Source: Bdellovibrionales bacterium (GTDB lineage Bacteria > Bdellovibrionota > Bdellovibrionia > Bdellovibrionales > JAKFYE01). From it: a stretch of 64,000 bases of DNA. Location of the stretch: positions 1 through 64,000 of the forward strand of contig JAKFYE010000005.1 in assembly GCA_021731045.1 (NCBI GenBank), in the 5' to 3' direction. Shown here one piece after another: positions 40-10,661 of the stretch; within the stretch, counting starts at the first letter, position 1; each line of letters starts with the position of its first letter. The notes below the pieces were generated by a model. The model was not told the origin of the DNA, did not search any database, and was given only the letters and a program-made list of their open reading frames with translations. The position numbers and the translations under genes were made by a program.

Positions 40-1182
40 CTATCTTGTAAGATAAAGTACCACGGCTGTTATTACCGTATTTGCAAGAGCCCACGGCAAC
101 ATCGTTTTCCACCCCAAATCCATGAGATGATCGTAACGAAATCGCGGGAGCGTCCATCGTACCCAAATAAAAATCCATAAAAACAATCCAACTTTTAAAC
201 AAAACGACAGTAAAAAAACTAAGCTTGTTAATAGGCTGGCCACAGTTGCTGAGTTGCCGCCACTCAAAAAGTGTTGATACATTTCGGCATCGGTCCAACC
301 TGGAATCGCGTAACCGCCAAAATAAAACACCGCCATCAAAGCGCCGCCAACCATCATGTGGCCGTATTCACCCATAAAGAACAAAAGCATTTTAAATCCG
401 CCGTACTCCGTGTGAAAGCCGGCAACCAATTCACCTTCGGACTCTGGAAGATCAAACGGCAAACGATTACTTTCGGCAAACGTACAAACAAAAAACAAGA
501 GCGCGCCGAGGGGTTGATAGAAAACTCCCCAATTGGGTAAAAACGAAATCGCTTCAGGAATAAAACTGTATTTAAGCGGCCCCGCTTGCGCCGCAATCAT
601 TTCTTTAAAATCAAAAGACCCGTAGGTCATGATAATGCCAACAATTGAAAGTCCTAGTGCAAGTTCGTAGCTAATCATTTGTGCGCTGGCTCTAAGAGCG
701 CCCATCAATGAATATTTATTTCCGGAGCCCCAACCCGCAGCGAGCAAACCGTACGCGCCGAGAGATGAAACGCCTAAAACATAAATAATTCCGACATTAA
801 TATATGCCGATTGCGCATGAAATACGTATGGCCCCCACATGTGTCCCAGCATTTGAAATGGTTCGACATTAATATCTGTCGAAAGCGGAATCGCCGCAAA
901 AGCTAGCGCCGCAGGAATCAACGCCAAAACGGGTGCCGCTAAAAACAAAGCTTTGGTTGCGCGCTCTGGAATAAACTGTTCTTTCGTTATAAACTTAATC
1001 GCGTCGGCCACAAGTTGCAAAAGACCTAAAGGGCCGACGCGATTGGGTCCGAGTCGATTTTGAATAAACGCCGAGCCCCGTCTCTCGAGCCATACCAACA
1101 TGGGAACCATGTTGATCATCATTAAGAATATAATTGCGAGCTTTAGAAAGTTGACCGTGATTTCAAAAATATCTAATCCCAT
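40..1182 (-). CDS. nuoH: NADH-quinone oxidoreductase subunit H
   Basis: NuoH is the complex I membrane subunit that joins the peripheral arm to the membrane arm and lines the quinone chamber. Near the N-terminus the sequence shows WLERRGSAFIQNRLGPNRVG, then a K-x-x-x-K-E stretch. Mid-protein it has the family motif around ESNRLPFDLPESEGELVAGF. It has about eight hydrophobic segments and ends RFRYDHLMDLGWK, and 380 residues is close to the usual length. I place the start at the ATG at 1182, which shares one base with the nuoA stop (TAATG) and sits about 8 nt after a GGAG. A GTG nine bases earlier is also possible. It is translationally coupled to nuoA and followed by a probable nuoJ. Confidence 0.95.
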   Translation of the reverse strand: MGLDIFEITVNFLKLAIIFLMMINMVPMLVWLERRGSAFIQNRLGPNRVGPLGLLQLVADAIKFITKEQFIPERATKALFLAAPVLALIPAALAFAAIPLSTDINVEPFQMLGHMWGPYVFHAQSAYINVGIIYVLGVSSLGAYGLLAAGWGSGNKYSLMGALRASAQMISYELALGLSIVGIIMTYGSFDFKEMIAAQAGPLKYSFIPEAISFLPNWGVFYQPLGALLFFVCTFAESNRLPFDLPESEGELVAGFHTEYGGFKMLLFFMGEYGHMMVGGALMAVFYFGGYAIPGWTDAEMYQHFLSGGNSATVASLLTSLVFLLSFCLKVGLFLWIFIWVRWTLPRFRYDHLMDLGWKTMLPWALANTVITAVVLYLTR

Positions 1183-1553
1183 TAACTCCACTCCAGAGCT
1201 TTAGCTTTATATTCATAAAAAAGACCGAAGATAAGAATGCCCATAAATAAACCCATCGTGATTAATAAATAGCCGCCGTATTCTGCGACTTGTGATGGAT
1301 AAATGAGCGCCCACGGATAGAGAAAAATAACTTCGATATCAAAAAGAATAAAAGAAATTGCCGTCAGATAAAATTTAATCGGAATTCGCGTAGTTTCGGA
1401 TTCGGTACCCGCGACGCCACACTCGTATGGCATTTGCTTGACCGCAGATTTTTCTACTTTCGGTCCTGCGAGTGACGTCAAAAACAAAAGTCCGCCACCA
1501 AAAATAATTACGACTACAAGCAAAATCAGAACTGGCAAAAGCTGATCGAGCAT
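1182..1553 (-). CDS. nuoA: NADH-quinone oxidoreductase subunit A
   Basis: This is the small three-helix complex I membrane subunit (123 residues) that helps form the quinone-site interface with NuoH and NuoJ. The family loop YECG is present, followed by IPIKFYLTAISFILFDIEVI with the conserved F-D-x-E, then a P-W and a C-terminal W. The start ATG follows GAAGGA at good spacing. The stop overlaps the nuoH start, so the two are translationally coupled. It follows a NuoN-like gene by 22 bases and probably shares its transcript. Confidence 0.95.
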   Translation of the reverse strand: MLDQLLPVLILLVVVIIFGGGLLFLTSLAGPKVEKSAVKQMPYECGVAGTESETTRIPIKFYLTAISFILFDIEVIFLYPWALIYPSQVAEYGGYLLITMGLFMGILIFGLFYEYKAKALEWS

Positions 1554-1575: not shown

Positions 1576-3042
1576 TCATGAAGCGTTTTTCACAAACAAG
1601 TTGATAGAATGACTAAGATATTTATACAGAGGCGTTGGATATATTCCAAGTATTAAGACAATCGCCATCAAGGTATAATTCCAAATTTTTGCAGCAAACC
1701 CACGATCATCCCAAACAGAATTTCGCCTTGCATTACCAAAGTAAAGTTCGACGATCCGATTGCAAATAATAATTGTAATAAGTGCTGTAAAAATAAGCGC
1801 TAACAAAGAGGTGACACCTTCTATGTCTAAGATCAGCTTTGCACGTTCGATTAGTTTTTTATTCAAATCATATCCCACGTAAGTCAAAAATGGCGCCGAA
1901 CCCAAAAGCGCAAAAAGGCAGCCTAGTTGAATACTTACGGAAGATTTCTGCAGCGCGTCCCCGAGGTCTTTGAGCGTGGCCTGAGTTGAAATGTTCAGTG
2001 TCGCAAACGTTAAATGTAAAAGAGAACTGCAGAACACAAAAATATAAATTGTACTCTGAGAAATGAGCAACCCTTCTGGCCCAATCAAAGAGGTCGAAAG
2101 AAGTGCTGAAAAAAGTCCAGCTGTTAGTGTGAGTTGTGAAAAGAGCAACACTCGCTCGGTATTGAGTAATGCTAAAATAGTAATCACCGAGACCGCGCAA
2201 GAGAGCACGCCCGAGATATGGGCCGCCGAAAGCGAAAGAATTGATGTAAACGAGCCGGTAATTTCCCACTGAAATCCTGTAATAAAAATCCACTTAGAAA
2301 ATAAAATTACTCCGAGCAATGGCAGAGACATTCTAAAGAATCCAATTAACGACCAAGATTCGCTGTGTTCGTAGCGAGTTAAAAATAAAGCCATTGGTGG
2401 TAACAACATCATCGAAATGCACATCAAAATATGGAGAGACCATCCAATTATAAACTGTGGGCTTTTTTGTGCGACCAACAACGCCTGGCCAATTTCGCCC
2501 AATTCGAGTGTGTCGGCAGCTTGTCCAATAAGCGCAGCTGAAAATGCAAAGAGAAACATCACTATCATTGCGCTCATAACAGCAATCCGAAACCCTTTTC
2601 CTTTGGGGGTTTCCACATTAAAAAGCGGCGCCGCGCCCGCAATTAAAAACGTCATTGGTGCCGCTAGAACATATAATATTAAATTGTTCGCCATAATAAA
2701 TATAATTCCCGACAGAACAAACGCGAGTTGAAGGATGCCTGTTTCGGTTTCAAACTGACAACGATCAAAGCGCAAAGAAATATGATTTAATAGCGAGAAG
2801 ATCAAAAAGCAAAATAACAAATGTGTATTCATGCCGTCCAAACGAAACAACCCCGACGCACTTACGCCCCAATAGTCGCGCCCCAAAATCGCAACCTGAA
2901 ACGTTGTTGCCGTAAGAATAAACAGCACTGTTTTCCATTGAGTATGAAAGATTTTTTCGTTGCCCAGTATGCGGTTTAAAAGCAAGACCACGATACCGAT
3001 CACGGGCGTGATGACGAGAGCAAAACATGGCCAATCGAGCAT
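1576..3042 (-). CDS. Diverged NuoN-like antiporter-type membrane protein
   Basis: A polytopic membrane protein of 488 residues with about 13-14 hydrophobic segments. Its length, its position immediately before nuoA and its ending (LILGIYPTPLYKYL) fit the NuoN/ND2 family. The residues that usually carry protons do not line up. Where NuoN has a glutamate in helix 5 the sequence reads YVLAAPMTFLIAG, and the helix 7 K-x-x-x-x-P-F-H-x-W segment reads ISMMLLPPMALFLTRYEHS. It is therefore either a degenerate complex I antiporter subunit or part of a different NDH-like membrane complex. The start ATG follows AAGGAAG. It lies nine bases after the preceding membrane gene in what looks like one operon. 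Family membership is moderately likely; function as a pump is doubtful. Confidence 0.6.
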   Translation of the reverse strand: MLDWPCFALVITPVIGIVVLLLNRILGNEKIFHTQWKTVLFILTATTFQVAILGRDYWGVSASGLFRLDGMNTHLLFCFLIFSLLNHISLRFDRCQFETETGILQLAFVLSGIIFIMANNLILYVLAAPMTFLIAGAAPLFNVETPKGKGFRIAVMSAMIVMFLFAFSAALIGQAADTLELGEIGQALLVAQKSPQFIIGWSLHILMCISMMLLPPMALFLTRYEHSESWSLIGFFRMSLPLLGVILFSKWIFITGFQWEITGSFTSILSLSAAHISGVLSCAVSVITILALLNTERVLLFSQLTLTAGLFSALLSTSLIGPEGLLISQSTIYIFVFCSSLLHLTFATLNISTQATLKDLGDALQKSSVSIQLGCLFALLGSAPFLTYVGYDLNKKLIERAKLILDIEGVTSLLALIFTALITIIICNRIVELYFGNARRNSVWDDRGFAAKIWNYTLMAIVLILGIYPTPLYKYLSHSINLFVKNAS

Positions 3043-3051
3043 GACTCTTCC

Positions 3052-4164
3052 TTAGGTAATAAAGTTAAATCTCTGATTTAAAAGTAGGCTTATAAAATAT
3101 AAAAATACGGCCCCGTGTACGGCCACTCTGCCGTAAAAATAAAGCTTTGAGTTTTCTTTTAATGTCTTTCCAAACACCTGCTCCCGATCTGCCTGACTCC
3201 ATATCTTAGAAGAGACTAGAATAGTGAATGCGGACCACAAAACAAACTCGTACATCTCAAGTTTGGATTGCATTTTGTAGAGCATCCAAAGAGAGATAAA
3301 AAAACCAGCGCTTCCAAAAGCCCCGAGCTCTAGCGCAGAAAGATCACTGTTTCTTTTTTGGGCGACATAGTTTTTAATCGGAAAGATCGAGCCAAAAGCC
3401 ATTATTCCTATGAGCATATAGATCAACATTATAATTTCGTGTGCTCTAAACAAACTCGCAAATATTATGATTAACGAGTACGCCGTCATCGAGACGTGTG
3501 CCCAGCTTAGACGATTCGGCTTAATGTTTGAAACAAGAAACAACCCAAGCAACACGCCCACCATTGGCTCACGAAATAAATTGGCAATGTTGACGTTTAT
3601 CAAAACCGGTTTCCATTGAAACGCCCAAACGACAAAACCCAAACGCAACACTAACTGTTGAAGCGAAATTAGCGTCCAAACAATTTCAGGTCTAAATGTT
3701 TTCACATACTGAAGAAAGAAGGGAAACAAACTAAAGATTACAGCGGCGGTCGGTACCACATACGCCATTTCGTCATAAGAAAAAACAGGGCGAGACAAAA
3801 CTGCCGGCAAAATTGCAATAACCGTAGCGACACCCACGATTAAAAACCGAACGGCTGCATGTAAAACTAATTGTGACACAACGAAAATTGTACTAACCGA
3901 AAGAAATATGCAGCACGCCCACGACATAAAACTTTGTGGCTCGTCTATATATAATCCGATAGTAAATGTCGTAAGCATCAACACCACGATGTAAGAAATC
4001 CAACGACCTCGCGAGCGATCAAAGCTCAACATCAGGGCAAAAATTCCGAAAAGCGTGAGCCACGCATAGTGCATCTGCGACGAATGACCCGTCGGACTAA
4101 TTGTGCCCAGTATTCCTATTAGCAACGTTGCCAAAGTAGGAACTAAATATTGTAGTAACACCAT
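3052..4164 (-). CDS. Polytopic membrane protein, possibly diverged NuoM-like
   Basis: The product (370 residues) is hydrophobic almost throughout, with about ten or more predicted helices and no recognisable soluble domain. The reading frame is open further upstream, but those codons are charged and overlap the preceding gene. I choose the ATG giving MVLLQYLVPTLATLL, which overlaps the upstream gene by 22 bases. I do not recognise a family directly. The assignment as the M-position member of a complex I-like set comes only from gene order (K-like, this pair, N-like). NuoM is normally about 500 residues, so if this is NuoM it is shortened and lacks the usual lysine-bearing helices. Confidence 0.45.
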   Translation of the reverse strand: MVLLQYLVPTLATLLIGILGTISPTGHSSQMHYAWLTLFGIFALMLSFDRSRGRWISYIVVLMLTTFTIGLYIDEPQSFMSWACCIFLSVSTIFVVSQLVLHAAVRFLIVGVATVIAILPAVLSRPVFSYDEMAYVVPTAAVIFSLFPFFLQYVKTFRPEIVWTLISLQQLVLRLGFVVWAFQWKPVLINVNIANLFREPMVGVLLGLFLVSNIKPNRLSWAHVSMTAYSLIIIFASLFRAHEIIMLIYMLIGIMAFGSIFPIKNYVAQKRNSDLSALELGAFGSAGFFISLWMLYKMQSKLEMYEFVLWSAFTILVSSKIWSQADREQVFGKTLKENSKLYFYGRVAVHGAVFLYFISLLLNQRFNFIT

Positions 4165-5330
4165 AAAACTAGACTCCAGAGAATGATCGCAAATAATCCT
4201 ATGCCAAAATTTCGACTTTCTAAGTTCAATTCCTTTTTGTGTTTTACAACTGAAAACCCGCTGGATATTTCGTGATTGGCCACCCCCAGCACTCGTTCCT
4301 GTGTCTTCAAACATGGCATCAAGCTGAAAACATCCAGCAGGCTCCATCGAAAAGCTTTGTTAAATTTTATTTTATTTAACGGGCTTACAAATCGTTTTAG
4401 AACTTCCATCAATATAGCGGCAACACCAAAAACAAAACCTTCCGGGCGGGGCCAGACTATTTCTTCAATATTGTTTACGAACAATGCAATCAATACGATT
4501 GCTAAAACGGCAATAGCTAAAAAAATGTAATCACGAATCGCCGCCTTATTTTTCATATTTAACTTTGGCCAATCTCGTTCGGCACTCATCCATCCCGCAA
4601 ATAAACCAGCCGCACCAAAGACTCCCATTAAAACTTCTTCTTCTAAGGGGAGTTCCACTGTGCACACCAAATAAAAAACCGCCAACTGAAGGGCTCGCGC
4701 CGACCAGCCTTGACCTAAACATAGGACTGTAATGGCTGGAGAGAAAATACGAAGCTCCGGCTTTATCCAAACTAAGCCGGTAAAAATGAGAAAAAGCGGG
4801 AGATCCTTGTTCGGACCCCAAAATGAAATGAAGCTCAGAGTAAAAAAAGCGTAGCTCACCCACTCTTGGTTAGGAACAAAAATATTTGCGAGCAACAAAG
4901 ACACCGGAATATAAATAAGAATTTTAGAGTTTGTTTCAACCAGATCTTCTTTATGGTTCGATCGCAGTGCGCCCGAAAACGGCCAATCTGTTGTGACAAG
5001 AAAAACAAAAAGTATAAAACATCCAAGGCCAATAAGATCGCCATTCAAACTGCTCGATAAAAAAATAAGTCCGCTAATAGCCCCTAAAATAACTTTTTGG
5101 CTGCGCGATCGAACTTCTTCTTGTTCACCTTGTGCTTGCAGATTCTGCAAGAGCAATGAAAAGGCTCCTAAAATAAGAAGAAGTGCGCCCTCGACACCTT
5201 TTAAGAAGACTGCACCTGCCGAAAAAATACAAAACAAATAGACCCAGGATTTTCTGCGACTTTTAATATATTCAAAAAGCCCGACGCTTGCTAAAACAAA
5301 ATACCAAAGCTGTTGTTCCTGAAGCGTCAT
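4143..5330 (-). CDS. Polytopic membrane protein, possibly diverged NuoL-like
   Basis: An integral membrane protein of 395 residues with about ten hydrophobic segments, interrupted by a charged loop near residues 65-75 (QGEQEEVRSRSQK) and a hydrophilic stretch near the C-terminus. No family motif is recognised. Its ATG overlaps the upstream stop in an ATGA arrangement, so it is translationally coupled within the membrane-gene run. By position between a NuoK-like and a NuoN-like gene it could represent the L member of a diverged complex I membrane arm, but NuoL is normally over 600 residues with a long lateral helix. Function unknown. Confidence 0.45.
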   Translation of the reverse strand: MTLQEQQLWYFVLASVGLFEYIKSRRKSWVYLFCIFSAGAVFLKGVEGALLLILGAFSLLLQNLQAQGEQEEVRSRSQKVILGAISGLIFLSSSLNGDLIGLGCFILFVFLVTTDWPFSGALRSNHKEDLVETNSKILIYIPVSLLLANIFVPNQEWVSYAFFTLSFISFWGPNKDLPLFLIFTGLVWIKPELRIFSPAITVLCLGQGWSARALQLAVFYLVCTVELPLEEEVLMGVFGAAGLFAGWMSAERDWPKLNMKNKAAIRDYIFLAIAVLAIVLIALFVNNIEEIVWPRPEGFVFGVAAILMEVLKRFVSPLNKIKFNKAFRWSLLDVFSLMPCLKTQERVLGVANHEISSGFSVVKHKKELNLESRNFGIGLFAIILWSLVLWCYYNI

Positions 5331-5581
5331 CTCTCCGCTCCATCTTTGGTGCGACTCGACTGAGAAAACAACATGACAAGCGAAAGTCCCGTGCCGATAA
5401 AAATAATCATAAAGCTAAAAAGTCGAATAAGGGGCTGAACGTTACCACCGCCAAACTCAGAAAGGGTGGCAGAAATATAATGCGTAATCAAAACACCGCT
5501 CAAAAGACGACCGTAGAAAGTTTTAGAAAGAAGCAAAACAACTGCGGAACATGTGAGTGCGGTAACGTCTAACCAAATCAT
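5327..5581 (-). CDS. Small three-helix membrane protein, NuoK-like
   Basis: 84 residues with three hydrophobic segments. The frame is open further upstream, but the ATG at 5581 overlaps the preceding stop as ATGA and gives a membrane-type start (MIWLDVTALT). Length, topology and the ending FIGTGLSLVMLF recall NuoK, the smallest antiporter-like subunit. The buried glutamate of NuoK helix 2 is not visible, since the corresponding segment reads GVLITHYISATLSEF. It is coupled to both neighbours. The NuoK assignment is inference from size, topology and order. Confidence 0.45.
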   Translation of the reverse strand: MIWLDVTALTCSAVVLLLSKTFYGRLLSGVLITHYISATLSEFGGGNVQPLIRLFSFMIIFIGTGLSLVMLFSQSSRTKDGAER

Positions 5582-5955
5582 TTTTTTCCTTGCAAATAAA
5601 GCGATGTGAGAGCCGCCACAACAGCGCCAAAAACGCCAAAAAGAATAAGCACAACAGAAAACGGACCTTGAATAAGGAGGCCTGCTTCGGCCCAAGTCGA
5701 TTGCTCAAAATTGTTTTGATGATGCAACATCAAAGGCACGATCGAAAGAAAGACTAGGAGCCCTATCAAAACTTGCCCCTTCGGAAACTTTTCCTGAATA
5801 GGCGGCTCTTTGGATTCAAAATTTAGTGCGGCGAGCGCAATGACCAATTGTGAGAGGGCGATGATCATTGCCAGAAGCTGATCTTGATTTATTGTCAATT
5901 TTGTAATTAACAAAATTTCGGTTATTATTAAAAGTAGCATCGTAATTTTTTTCAA
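5578..5955 (-). CDS. Small membrane protein, NuoJ-like
   Basis: 125 residues with four hydrophobic segments. The C-terminal part, GLLIQGPFSVVLILFGVFG followed by a small-residue-rich helix, resembles the end of NuoJ (usually a G-x-x-L-F segment, then a helix ending G-A-x-x-L-A). The reading frame begins with TTG at 5955, one base after the upstream stop and about 6 nt after a GGGG. An ATG at 5940 is an alternative. The stop overlaps the next gene. NuoJ is normally about 160-200 residues, so this would be a shortened relative. Confidence 0.45.
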   Translation of the reverse strand: MKKITMLLLIITEILLITKLTINQDQLLAMIIALSQLVIALAALNFESKEPPIQEKFPKGQVLIGLLVFLSIVPLMLHHQNNFEQSTWAEAGLLIQGPFSVVLILFGVFGAVVAALTSLYLQGKK

Positions 5956-6771
5956 TCAAAGCCCCATCGCAATGATAATGCTCGCCAGAAATATTAACGG
6001 TATGACCAGGCTCATGACAAAGTTTTCAAAAAACTGAACTTTTGTTTTCGCAAACATCGCTCGACCCACATCTTGCAAAAATAAAATCGCCTGAGCTTTA
6101 ATTATTTGTTCTCCACAAGCAGACGCCGCATGCAGACTTTCGGGGGGCCAAAATATCATCACGAGACCAATGGACCATACCACTTGTGACAATCGCGAAA
6201 CAATCTCGGGAACTTCAGCCGACTTTTCAAATGTTAGAAACGAAACTAGCGAAAGATATAAAAACATAAGGATCAACCACTTTATGATGTACCCGGCGAT
6301 GAGCCAACCTCCAACATCTTGATGCGGTTTAATTCCGTACAAAACTGTAGCAAGTCCCATCGCTCCTACAAGGGCAGCACACGTACGCAATTTAACATTC
6401 GGATGTTTTTCTCCGTCATAAAAGTGCGTTCGCCCCGTAACTAAAATTTGAATAAACAAAAAGACAAGTGGCACGATTAGTTTTTCATCATGCCCCCACT
6501 CCTTTGTAAAAATCGGACCAAGAAATATGCAGCCCAGTAACGATTGTAATCCCAAGACAAGGATCCAAACACTTCTCCAATTAATTTCGCGATTTTTCCA
6601 CAGACTTGCGAGGCCCCACATGGAGTAAATCGTACGAAATTTTTCTGGCGTGCCGTTAATGCCTTTTGCAAGCTCAAGACGAGGAACAAAAAAGGCGGCT
6701 AGGATTTGGCCTGCCAGCAGTAGCGTAACAACGATCAAAACATTCGCGATGAGGAGACTTGCGAGTTCCAT
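5956..6771 (-). CDS. Membrane protein in the NuoH position, diverged
   Basis: A membrane protein of about 271 residues with seven or eight hydrophobic segments. The N-terminal helix followed by a basic loop (VPRLELAKGINGTPEKFR) sits where NuoH/HyfC proteins have their quinone-loop motif. The NuoH signature residues (R-x-G-P-N and the P-F-D-L-P-E loop seen in the canonical nuoH of this window) are absent. I start it at the ATG at 6771, which shares a base with the upstream stop; a GTG three bases earlier is also in frame. Assignment as a NuoH/HycD relative is tentative and leans on gene order. Confidence 0.4.
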   Translation of the reverse strand: MELASLLIANVLIVVTLLLAGQILAAFFVPRLELAKGINGTPEKFRTIYSMWGLASLWKNREINWRSVWILVLGLQSLLGCIFLGPIFTKEWGHDEKLIVPLVFLFIQILVTGRTHFYDGEKHPNVKLRTCAALVGAMGLATVLYGIKPHQDVGGWLIAGYIIKWLILMFLYLSLVSFLTFEKSAEVPEIVSRLSQVVWSIGLVMIFWPPESLHAASACGEQIIKAQAILFLQDVGRAMFAKTKVQFFENFVMSLVIPLIFLASIIIAMGL

Positions 6772-7091
6772 CACGGGTCGCCTCGATCAACAAAAGATTT
6801 CAATAAAAATAGATAAGAAAGAAAACTAATAAGCACAAACCCCGCGCCACTACCGCGCGCGGTCCATGTTGTAAGGTGAGGAGAGGAAAAAAATACGACA
6901 AAGATCAAAACTAGAAAAAAACAAAAAAGAGGTAAAAGTGTTTTCGGGCTAGCGGTTAATTTTCCGGAATAAGATATTTTTGATTTTGCATGACGCAAGA
7001 CATTGGCCGCCGGCTGGATTCTTCTTAAAAAGAAAAATACCAGGGACCAAAGAATAATATTAAATAGCAGCGCAATTCCGAGAGTGAGCAT
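6771..7091 (-). CDS. Small three-helix membrane protein, first gene of the complex I-like run
   Basis: 106 residues with helices at about 4-22, 51-68 and 82-98, and a basic loop between the first two. Three helices with a loop after the first is the topology of NuoA, but the NuoA loop motif (E-C-G) and the F-D-x-E motif are missing. It is the first minus-strand gene of the cluster; 45 bases separate it from the divergent mfd, so the operon promoter must lie there or inside mfd. Its stop overlaps the next start. Confidence 0.45.
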   Translation of the reverse strand: MLTLGIALLFNIILWSLVFFFLRRIQPAANVLRHAKSKISYSGKLTASPKTLLPLFCFFLVLIFVVFFSSPHLTTWTARGSGAGFVLISFLSYLFLLKSFVDRGDP

Positions 7092-7136: not shown

Positions 7137-10100
7137 TTGAAATTTAATACTGTAAAAACCCGTTTTGAATCACTACTCGAGAGGGGCTTAGAAGCCAATG
7201 CCCACACTCTCACCATTTTTGGAACAACTTCCACAACGGCTGGTGCTTTTTTTGTAAACGAACTTCAATCTTCCGCATTTCATTCTTATGTTCATCTTTT
7301 TATTTGTGCCGATGAGTCCAAAGCTGAGGCTTTAAAAAACGATCTTCTTTTTTTCAATCCGACTCAAGAGTTCCCGCTTCTTTCTGGTTTTGATGTTTCG
7401 CCCTATTCCGGCTTATTCCCAAATGCAAAAACAATTGCGGAGCGATTAGGCTGGTTGGCTCAAGCTTGGCAGGCATCCCCTGGAGACATTTTTGTTTCGT
7501 CGGTCGAAGCCATCTCTCAAAAAACAATGTCTCGTTCTGATTTTGTCTCCTATGTTCATAATTATAAAAAGGGCGGCACTTTAACGCAGCAAGATTTGCA
7601 GTTTTTAAGAAGCATTGGATACCAAGAGAGTCCGCGCGTCGAAGATGTGGGGCAATACTCTTTTCGTGGAGGAATTTTTGACATTTTTCCTCCGACCAGC
7701 GAACTCCCGATACGCGTAGAGCTTTTTGGCGACGTGATGGAGTCGCTTCGAACCTTTGATCCCGAAACTCAACGTTCGGTCACCGCCATTGAGGGTTTTA
7801 CAGTTTGTCCCGTACGCGAAACGCTCTATCGCGACGAGCATCGACAAGAGCTTGTGCGACTTTTTTCTGAATCTCTCAAAGGTCGTCATTTAGATGTGCG
7901 GGATGTCGAAGTTGTCCTTCATGATCTGTCCTTAGGTAAATATTTTCCGGGGATTGAGTTTTTATTGCCTTATTTTTATGAAAAACTGTCGCTGCCAATC
8001 GATTATTTTCAGCGTCCCGTTTTGGTGTGGTTATTAGATTCTATGGAGTCTATGCAATCTTATGATAAATTAATGACGACTCTGCGCGACGAGTTTCGTG
8101 CTCACGATGAAGTGGTCATTCGTACTCCCTACGAGGATCTTTATAAAACCAATGGCCCACCATGGGAGTCCGATCACTCTAAACAACTTCATTTCTATCG
8201 CCTTCGCGTCGACAGCCAAGAAACTGAAACGGCAGGGCCTGAAGTTTTTGATTACCCCACTCAGAAAAACAATGATTTTCGAAATTCAGTAAAGACCAAA
8301 GCAGAATCCGGCGAAGATTTTATAGCCGAGGCCGTGGCTCGCATTCAAAAATATCGGACTCAAGGACAAGCGGTTTTTATTTCAACTCACACGCAAAGTC
8401 AGGCTCAGCGTCTCTCTTTTTTAATGGAAAAACATTCCCTACACGCCATTCTACATAACGATCCAAGTACGGATTGGACTGATCTACGAAACCAACAGCT
8501 TAGCTCTCCGAATCTAATTCATATTATTCCGCGCTTGCTCACTGACAGCGTCCGTTTGGTTGAAGAAGGTTTAGTTTTTTTTAATGAGGATGATTTCTTT
8601 TCTAAAAAAGATCTCCGTCGCGAAAAACGCACGGCTAACACCTCGACCAAAACATCCGAACTTGATTTTGGTGACCTTAAAATTGGCGACTACGTTGTTC
8701 ATATCCAGCACGGCGTAGGAGTTTTTGATGGCCTTAAAGTTATGGCGGTTCAGGGTGTAGACGCAGAGTTTATTCAGCTCACATACAAGGATAAAGATAA
8801 ACTTTATTTGCCGGTTTATCGTATCGGACAAATTCAAAAGTTTTCAGGTGTGCCCGCACTAGACAAGCTCGGTGGTTTGAACTGGCAAAAAACAAAAATT
8901 AAAGTTCGCAGCCACTTGCGTGACCTTGCAAGCGAACTTCTACAGCTTTACGCCAAAAGAAGTCAGATTACACGGAAGCCTTTCCCGCCGATCGACGACA
9001 ATTACAAAAAATTTGAATCTCTATTTCAGTATGATGAAACCGACGATCAGCTAAAGGCGATCGATGCCATTCTGGATGATTTTAATAAAAACACGCCTAT
9101 GGATCGTTTGGTCTGCGGCGATGTCGGATTTGGAAAAACAGAAGTTGCCTTACGTGCCGCGTACAAAGTGGCGCAAGATCACCGACAGGTCATTGTTCTC
9201 GCGCCAACGACCGTTCTCACATTTCAACATCTTGAAACATTTAGAAATCGATTTAAGGGTTTGCCTTTTAACATTGCGGGGTTTAGTCGTTTTACTCCCA
9301 AAGCAGAACTTAAAAAAAATATAGCGGGTTTAAAAACTGGCAAAATTGATATCGCGATTGGCACTCATCGACTGTTAAGCAAAGATATTGAGTTCCAAAA
9401 TTTAGGGCTTCTCATTTTGGACGAAGAACAAAAGTTTGGTGTCGCTCATAAAGAAAAAATTAAAAAAGTTAAAACAACCGTAGATACTCTGGCACTTTCA
9501 GCTACGCCAATTCCTCGAACATTAAACCTCAGCCTTGTTGGAATTCGGGATCTCAGTCTTATTAATACCGCTCCTCGCGATCGACTTCCGATTCGAACAT
9601 TTATTTGCAAGTTTGAACCCGAAACAATTAGAAAAGCCATTTTATCTGAAATGCAACGAGGAGGACAGGTTTTTTATGTCCACAATCGAATCCAAAGTAT
9701 TTATGGTTTGGCTGATGAGTTACGAGCTCTTGTTCCCGAAGCGCGTATTCGCGTTGGACATGGACAAATGAACGCGGATGAGCTCGAAGAAACAATGCTT
9801 GCGTTTTTTAAGCACGAATTTGATGTTTTGCTCAGCACAACGATTATCGAATCAGGAATGGATGTTTCACGAGCTAACACAATGATTGTTGATCGTGCCG
9901 ATACCTTCGGCCTGAGCCAACTCTATCAATTACGAGGACGCATTGGTCGCAGCAAAGAACGCGCATATTGTTATTTATTAATTCCCAAGCGCGGGGCTCT
10001 CGATCCAGAGGCTCAAGAACGATTAAAAATTCTGCAGGAAAACTCCGCGCTCGGAAGTGGATTTAGAATTGCTCATCATGATCTCGAACTTCGTGGTGCC

Positions 10101-10661
10101 GGAAATATTCTTGGCGAAGAACAGTCCGGAAATATAAATGCGGTCGGCTACGAGCTGTATCTTGAACTCCTAGAAGATGCTCTTAAGACCGCAAGAGGCG
10201 AAGAGCCTGAGGACAAGGAGCTTGAACCCGATTTAAATATTCGCATCCCTGCACTTATTCCCGATGCATATATTCCCGATATTCGCATTCGCTTGCAGTT
10301 TTACAAGACTCTTTCAAATATCAAGGGCATCGATGATCTCGATCAAGTCGAATCCGATTTAAAAGATCAATTTGGACCTCCACCGGAACCGGTTTTGAAT
10401 TTGCTTGGCTTTATGCTCATTCGTCGTATGTGCAAAGATCTTGGCGTGCGTGATATTAGTTCGGGGCCCAAGTCTGTTTCGATCGCGTTTACCGAAAAAA
10501 CAAAAATGTCCCCGCAAAAAATTATTGACCTCGCCCTGCGCGAACGCAAGCGCTACACGCTCACACCAGACAGTCGACTCATATTCAAAACCGAGAATGT
10601 CAATTGGCCAGAGATTTACGAAGAGCTTGTTAAACTCAAGAAGCTTGCAGGTATTGATTAG
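7137..10661 (+). CDS. mfd: Transcription-repair coupling factor
   Basis: Mfd releases RNA polymerase stalled at DNA lesions and recruits UvrA. At 1174 residues it has the full family length. The N-terminal third is the UvrB-like region. A CarD-like RNA-polymerase-interaction domain lies around residues 515-570 (IGDYVVHIQHGVGVF). The translocase has Walker A GDVGFGKT near 661, motif II DEEQKFG near 761, motif III SATPIPRT near 787 and the GRIGRSKERAYCY motif. The reading frame begins with TTG (MKFNTVKTRF) preceded by AAGGAA. It is divergent from the complex I-like operon. uvrA lies elsewhere in the same window. Confidence 0.98.
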   Translation: MKFNTVKTRFESLLERGLEANAHTLTIFGTTSTTAGAFFVNELQSSAFHSYVHLFICADESKAEALKNDLLFFNPTQEFPLLSGFDVSPYSGLFPNAKTIAERLGWLAQAWQASPGDIFVSSVEAISQKTMSRSDFVSYVHNYKKGGTLTQQDLQFLRSIGYQESPRVEDVGQYSFRGGIFDIFPPTSELPIRVELFGDVMESLRTFDPETQRSVTAIEGFTVCPVRETLYRDEHRQELVRLFSESLKGRHLDVRDVEVVLHDLSLGKYFPGIEFLLPYFYEKLSLPIDYFQRPVLVWLLDSMESMQSYDKLMTTLRDEFRAHDEVVIRTPYEDLYKTNGPPWESDHSKQLHFYRLRVDSQETETAGPEVFDYPTQKNNDFRNSVKTKAESGEDFIAEAVARIQKYRTQGQAVFISTHTQSQAQRLSFLMEKHSLHAILHNDPSTDWTDLRNQQLSSPNLIHIIPRLLTDSVRLVEEGLVFFNEDDFFSKKDLRREKRTANTSTKTSELDFGDLKIGDYVVHIQHGVGVFDGLKVMAVQGVDAEFIQLTYKDKDKLYLPVYRIGQIQKFSGVPALDKLGGLNWQKTKIKVRSHLRDLASELLQLYAKRSQITRKPFPPIDDNYKKFESLFQYDETDDQLKAIDAILDDFNKNTPMDRLVCGDVGFGKTEVALRAAYKVAQDHRQVIVLAPTTVLTFQHLETFRNRFKGLPFNIAGFSRFTPKAELKKNIAGLKTGKIDIAIGTHRLLSKDIEFQNLGLLILDEEQKFGVAHKEKIKKVKTTVDTLALSATPIPRTLNLSLVGIRDLSLINTAPRDRLPIRTFICKFEPETIRKAILSEMQRGGQVFYVHNRIQSIYGLADELRALVPEARIRVGHGQMNADELEETMLAFFKHEFDVLLSTTIIESGMDVSRANTMIVDRADTFGLSQLYQLRGRIGRSKERAYCYLLIPKRGALDPEAQERLKILQENSALGSGFRIAHHDLELRGAGNILGEEQSGNINAVGYELYLELLEDALKTARGEEPEDKELEPDLNIRIPALIPDAYIPDIRIRLQFYKTLSNIKGIDDLDQVESDLKDQFGPPPEPVLNLLGFMLIRRMCKDLGVRDISSGPKSVSIAFTEKTKMSPQKIIDLALRERKRYTLTPDSRLIFKTENVNWPEIYEELVKLKKLAGID

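Follow-up and report, generated by a model that had tools for sequence, protein, structure and literature searches.

A fast-diverging seven-gene block before nuoA in a Bdellovibrionales bacterium is probably the membrane arm of a second complex I without an NADH module

At the start of contig JAKFYE010000005.1 of a Bdellovibrionales bacterium (GenBank assembly GCA_021731045.1), a block of seven membrane genes lies directly before the canonical complex I genes nuoA and nuoH. The stretch analysed here (the window) comprises positions 1 to 64,000 of the forward strand, 64,000 nucleotides (nt) in all, and its first base is the first base of the contig (C5). The seven open reading frames (ORFs) of the block run from 7091 to 1576 on the minus strand with neighbours overlapping by no more than 22 nt or lying within 9 nt of each other, and nuoA follows after another 22 nt. 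An initial annotation of the locus read them as a possible second, diverged A-H-J-K-L-M-N membrane arm of complex I. Primes mark the block genes and their counterparts in the following list of proteins (lengths in amino acids, aa; transmembrane helices, TM) and throughout.

6771..7091, minus strand: A' (NuoA-like, gene 1; 106 aa, 3 TM), from block position 1 and weak profile matches
5956..6774, minus strand: H' (NuoH-like, gene 2; 272 aa), from a Pfam match in the relative L140 and a profile match to H' of family f17
5578..5955, minus strand: J' (NuoJ position, gene 3; 125 aa), from order, size and a weak best match to f17 J'
5327..5581, minus strand: K' (NuoK-like, gene 4; 84 aa, 3 TM), from Oxidored_q2 matches below cut-off
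4143..5330, minus strand: L' position (gene 5; 395 aa), solely from order, size rank and its many TM helices
3052..4164, minus strand: M' position (gene 6; 370 aa), from order, topology and a weak antiporter-type match
1576..3042, minus strand: N' (NuoN-like, gene 7; 488 aa), from phmmer, the family profile against NuoN and aligned residues
1182..1553, minus strand: canonical nuoA, 22 nt downstream of the block (Pfam Oxidored_q4, E=3e-28)
40..1191, minus strand: canonical nuoH (Pfam NADHdh, E=3e-106)
7137..10661, plus strand: mfd, the divergent upstream neighbour and synteny anchor

The sizes of the block proteins follow those of A-H-J-K-L-M-N (Spearman rho 0.893), with 31 of 5040 permutations equal or better (p ~0.006). 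The name mfd is our reading of the protein and is consistent with its conservation. A nuoJ, which had been thought to follow nuoH, is not in the window, where only 39 bases remain beyond nuoH; the canonical nuoL (partial), nuoM and nuoN sit on contig C3 of the same assembly, and the genome is incomplete (83.5% complete).

Each of the 141 genomes analysed from the order has mfd, and in approximately 118 of them it shares a contig with nuoA. The canonical membrane operon in the order is nuoA-H-J-K-L-M-N, with mfd adjoining nuoA. In five of the ~118 genomes, that of the window included, an insert of 5.1-5.7 kb separates mfd from nuoA, and all five inserts contain the same seven ORFs. In the remaining genomes the gap measures ~0.1-0.7 kb by listed coordinates, except in G064, whose wider gap was rejected as a block because the ORFs inside it are soluble. 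Outside the order but in the same class, the block is present in three of the three genomes examined of family f11. Altogether, six genomes besides that of the window have the complete set between mfd and nuoA in like order and with like sizes; on a seventh relative contig (L139, f11), which begins at the last block gene, that gene and nuoA are visible. The coupled block before nuoA, as initially annotated, is thus borne out, and because the same set recurs in this place in six other genomes, we regard the ORFs as real genes. The seven reading frames are open in each of the seven genomes.

The block proteins diverge very fast. In the closer genome pairs, the canonical NuoA and NuoH proteins are ~64-75% identical whereas the block proteins of the same pairs share only ~15-35%, and by multiple alignment the block proteins are 10-31% identical between genomes. 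The only membrane residues conserved across the block are the N' C-terminus and a few helix-breaking residues. Canonical nuoA also shows a small variation: three copies of family f2 (L048, L049, L056) read YESG where the window and family f9 read YECG, a replacement of the loop cysteine by serine.

In Pfam and NCBIfam searches, none of the seven block proteins of the window matched a complex I family significantly, and for 28 block proteins from four relatives of the order no such match rose above chance; single-sequence searches with the window proteins found nothing in 99 relatives or in the PDB. We ascribe the lack of a significant family match in the window to the very fast divergence. A first seven-by-seven profile comparison, built on five diverged copies, revealed N only, and more was resolved with relatives from f11, whose block copies are less diverged than those of the order, and from f17. 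The latter family came to light when the profile of gene 7 was searched against the whole phylum. In f17 a whole operon, A'-B'-C'-D'-H'-I'-J'-K'-L'-M'-N', lies immediately before the canonical nuoA-B-C-D-E-F-G-H and following genes.

With these relatives, the homology of N' and H' to NuoN and NuoH is shown at the sequence level. The window gene 7, initially called NuoN-like, is invisible as such to Pfam, NCBIfam and phmmer against the PDB, and its likeness emerges only through relatives: the window N' matches the L139 copy by phmmer (E=2e-11), and gene-7 profiles match NuoN with 95-98% probability in hhalign over 412-442 columns (scores 68-101; all reversed-profile controls at most 24). For H', gene 2 of L140 in f11 scores 31.4 bits in Pfam NADHdh, above the curated cut-off of 27 (E=1.7e-7), the other f11 copy reaches E=9e-5, and the f11 profile matches f17 H' with P=92%. 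Profile-profile comparison, which the initial annotation had proposed as the check, thus singles out N' (against NuoN) and H' (against f17 H').

The matches of K', A' and J' are weak but specific and suggest these assignments. For gene 4, Oxidored_q2 is the top or sole relevant Pfam match in three genomes, below cut-off in each (E-values 0.037 in the window, 0.006 in L138 and 0.003 in L140). The f11 profile of A' has its row-best score against f17 A' (25.7; reversed A' 21.3), and the profile of all copies has its top score, 22.7, with canonical NuoA (no reversed score above 14.3). The J' profile has a weak best match to f17 J' (23.4); gene 3 of the window gave a weak MnhB match in Pfam (0.027) that is absent from the other gene 3 copies searched. 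Gene 6 has a weak match of antiporter type (score 28.9, controls 18.2), and the window M' finds the L039 copy by phmmer with E=0.01. The proposed A-H-J-K-L-M-N arm therefore stands for H and N, is suggested for K, A and J, and for L and M follows from order, size and topology, together with the antiporter-type match in the case of M'.

The block had been thought to lack peripheral-arm genes, which is not so in its relatives. All seven readable block-bearing relatives (G008, G009, G001, G015, G141, G142 and G143) have a second NuoD', and block-type NuoD' occurs almost nowhere outside block-bearing genomes. Six of them have an unbroken locus, in which a B'-(C')-D'-I' run lies directly behind the canonical nuoB-CD-E-F-G-I; in G015, D'-I'-X are on a separate short contig, X being a further gene described below. 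Pfam recognises B' and D' in L174 (4e-21 and 7e-32), and the shrunken C' (83-100 aa) is identified solely from its position. The small C' ORF is present in five of the six unbroken loci and X also in five of six, neither being recognised as an ORF in G008. The block-less genomes G013 and G014 are without the run, and the co-occurrence of run and block (7/7 against ~1/110) gives p ~2e-10 in a Fisher test that ignores shared ancestry and has an approximate denominator. NADH-module genes (E, F, G) are absent from the second operon of f17, from the block and from the B'-C'-D'-I' run, and the sole E-F-G set is that of the canonical operon. From the B'-C'-D'-I' genes of the relatives and the full operon of f17, we conclude, with a probability of roughly 80%, that the block is the membrane arm A'-H'-J'-K'-L'-M'-N' of a second complex I of the 11-subunit type that has no NADH module, whose quinone module is encoded elsewhere, and which is no longer a canonical pump. 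The window genome is expected to carry B'-C'-D'-I' genes too, which in relatives are usually joined by X.

Family f14 has a second membrane arm that is full-length and whose residues are well preserved. In the NuoH tree this arm groups with the second complex I of other phyla and the long f17 and block branches fall outside; because of this placement, we are unsure whether the f14 arm belongs to the same line as the block. After I' of its second peripheral operon, f14 also encodes a protein of 635 aa (L183:8524-10431, G146) whose iron-sulfur match is weak, a possible electron-input protein. Elsewhere, two loci of Methylomirabilota (L066, L092) carry extra nuo-type membrane genes ahead of nuoA, arranged with L-M-N first.

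The residues kept and lost by the second complex differ between its parts. All eight cysteines of I' are invariant, as are the four N2 cysteines of B', against only 10 of 126 and 15 of 124 ungapped columns invariant overall; these twelve cysteines are the ligands for clusters N6a, N6b and N2. In D' of the class Bdellovibrionia, both residues that we take to bind the quinone head group in complex I (His in GYLHR, Tyr in DRLNYC) are replaced, and H' has lost its acidic quinone loop. The alignment of N' indicates the loss of the TM5 Glu and of the TM7, TM8 and TM12 Lys in all block copies. The losses are graded among the relatives: f14 keeps both the D' His and Tyr and all four Lys/Glu of N', and f17 keeps the D' His and, in N', only the TM12 Lys, with Arg in TM8.

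Gene X (292-337 aa) follows I' in most carriers (L173-L176, L178, L179 and L185). Its profile matches cysteine desulfurases in the PDB (E ~1e-6) in one N-terminal and one C-terminal part. It is shorter than IscS/NifS, and its middle part, where we would expect the lysine that binds pyridoxal phosphate, is unmatched. X is therefore best described from its sequence as a putative degenerate relative of these enzymes that is unlikely to be catalytic.

As for the origin of the block, its implied gene order and its place beside the canonical operon would suit a diverged tandem duplicate of nuoA-H-J-K-L-M-N, and the long branches leave some room for this explanation. The block profiles, however, lie nearer the second complex I of f17 than the canonical one (H, 54.5 against f17 H' and 21.1 against canonical; N, 112.8 against f17 N' and 68.4 against canonical). 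In NuoD trees, likewise, D' of the block type forms a single clade separate from canonical NuoD, on long branches that make the exact attachment unsure, and the best matches of the D' profile outside the class are f17 D'. A mirrored order could also arise if both complexes were split alike. We therefore consider a duplicate unlikely: the tandem set of the initial annotation holds as an adjacency, and is probably no copy but closer to an 11-subunit-type complex I. Much less probable still is that gene 7 alone is related to complex I and the six remaining genes encode unrelated membrane proteins, the outcome that the initial annotation had set against itself. The silence of Pfam and NCBIfam on the window block and on the 28 proteins of four relatives would fit it, but it is contradicted by H' in L140, by the K' matches in three genomes, by A' and J' matching their counterparts best and by the f17 operon, which has the same order with recognisable subunits.

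A serious but less favoured alternative to the loss of pumping is that the complex still works as an ion translocator along a newly evolved quinone or ion path, as in other complex I relatives whose chemistry is altered. All its genes are open in seven genomes, every iron-sulfur ligand is kept and charged residues elsewhere could serve; on the other side stand the loss of the four canonical Lys/Glu positions and a membrane arm in which nothing is conserved but the N' C-terminus and a few helix breakers. The opposite extreme, a plain relict in slow decay without present function, would explain the very fast divergence, the shortened subunits, the lost catalytic positions and the repeated absence of the block in related families. 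It is improbable, slightly more so than a duplicate, in view of the tightly coupled frames, all seven open in each of seven genomes, the cysteines invariant in a fast-changing background and the co-occurrence of two distant loci. In terms of the decay that the initial annotation suggested for an ion module, the losses fall on the quinone site and pump residues, and the iron-sulfur ligands are intact.

Several observations weigh against the second-complex interpretation. The A, J and K assignments rest on weak matches, and hhalign profile-profile comparison did not confirm the likeness of gene 4 to NuoK. Profile comparisons of genes 5 and 6 gave no significant sequence match, so that L and M are inferred from order and topology, and an AlphaFold2 model of N' from two sequences failed (mean confidence score, pLDDT, 35). 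The residue losses are read from low-identity alignments, and function and docking are inferred. In addition, G003 (family f4; L185 = G003:C64) has a B'-C'-D'-I'-X run with all iron-sulfur cysteines and no block at mfd-nuoA, and a module search for a block elsewhere in that genome returned nothing. Neither NuoB nor NuoD occurs anywhere in the window assembly, so that its own peripheral genes are not visible.

If the second-complex interpretation is right, the complex is probably a redox machine of an unusual kind and not an ordinary pump. Electrons from an unspecified donor would still pass through I' and B', and the complex would no longer reduce quinone or pump protons in the canonical way; it may serve as a redox module or partner subcomplex that does not pump and whose membrane arm survives chiefly as a scaffold, and it might dock next to the genuine complex I. 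Docking is suggested by the gene neighbourhood, its only support. We would give about even odds to the fuller picture of a "pseudo-complex I" kept across a bacterial class, with a conserved iron-sulfur wire, a discarded quinone site and pumping residues, a hypervariable membrane arm, a degenerate cysteine-desulfurase partner and a non-pumping redox or partner role. To our knowledge, the pump and quinone residues of complex I are close to universal and the machine is among the best studied. An electron wire that is kept while quinone and pump chemistry is lost in grades (kept in f14, partly in f17, not in the block) would amount to a natural dissection of complex I and makes testable which parts serve assembly, electron transfer and coupling. 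The case also illustrates that whole complexes can escape annotation, as none of the seven window block proteins has a significant family match.

Among known systems, the canonical 14-subunit Nuo of the same genomes shares the A-H-J-K-L-M-N order, the adjacent position and homologous H and N subunits, and differs in having E, F and G of its own. The hydrogenases Mbh, Ech and Hyf and the Mrp antiporters share antiporter-type and NuoH-type membrane subunits with complex I. Unlike in Mbh, Ech and Hyf, the NiFe CxxC pairs are missing from the aligned D', and both the subunit set and its order agree with Nuo. The closest likeness is to the 11-subunit complex I of Desulfitobacterium hafniense (PMC11238625), which has the same A-D and H-N set without an NADH module and keeps the iron-sulfur ligands of B and I; f17 has one operon in that order. 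In contrast, the Bdellovibrionia set is split over two loci, with a hypervariable, shortened membrane arm and a shrunken C', and has lost the quinone His/Tyr and the NuoN Lys/Glu, features described as conserved in the known enzyme (PMC11238625). We found no description of this second complex I set in the open-licence literature, and the main text of a genome-wide complex I mining study does not mention Bdellovibrio (PMC12361115).

Seven other genomes of the order, all block-less, have an undivided A-B-C-D-H-I-J-K-L-M-N operon (L186-L192 in G005, G071, G094, G100, G058, G088 and G079). This well-conserved 11-subunit complex I was considered as a form of the block and rejected because its subunits strongly match canonical-type profiles. 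G071 also has a small cluster (L193, G071:C62) that encodes a 248-aa NuoB-like, a 504-aa NuoD-like and a 482-aa antiporter-type protein and is perhaps Hyf- or formate-hydrogenlyase-like.

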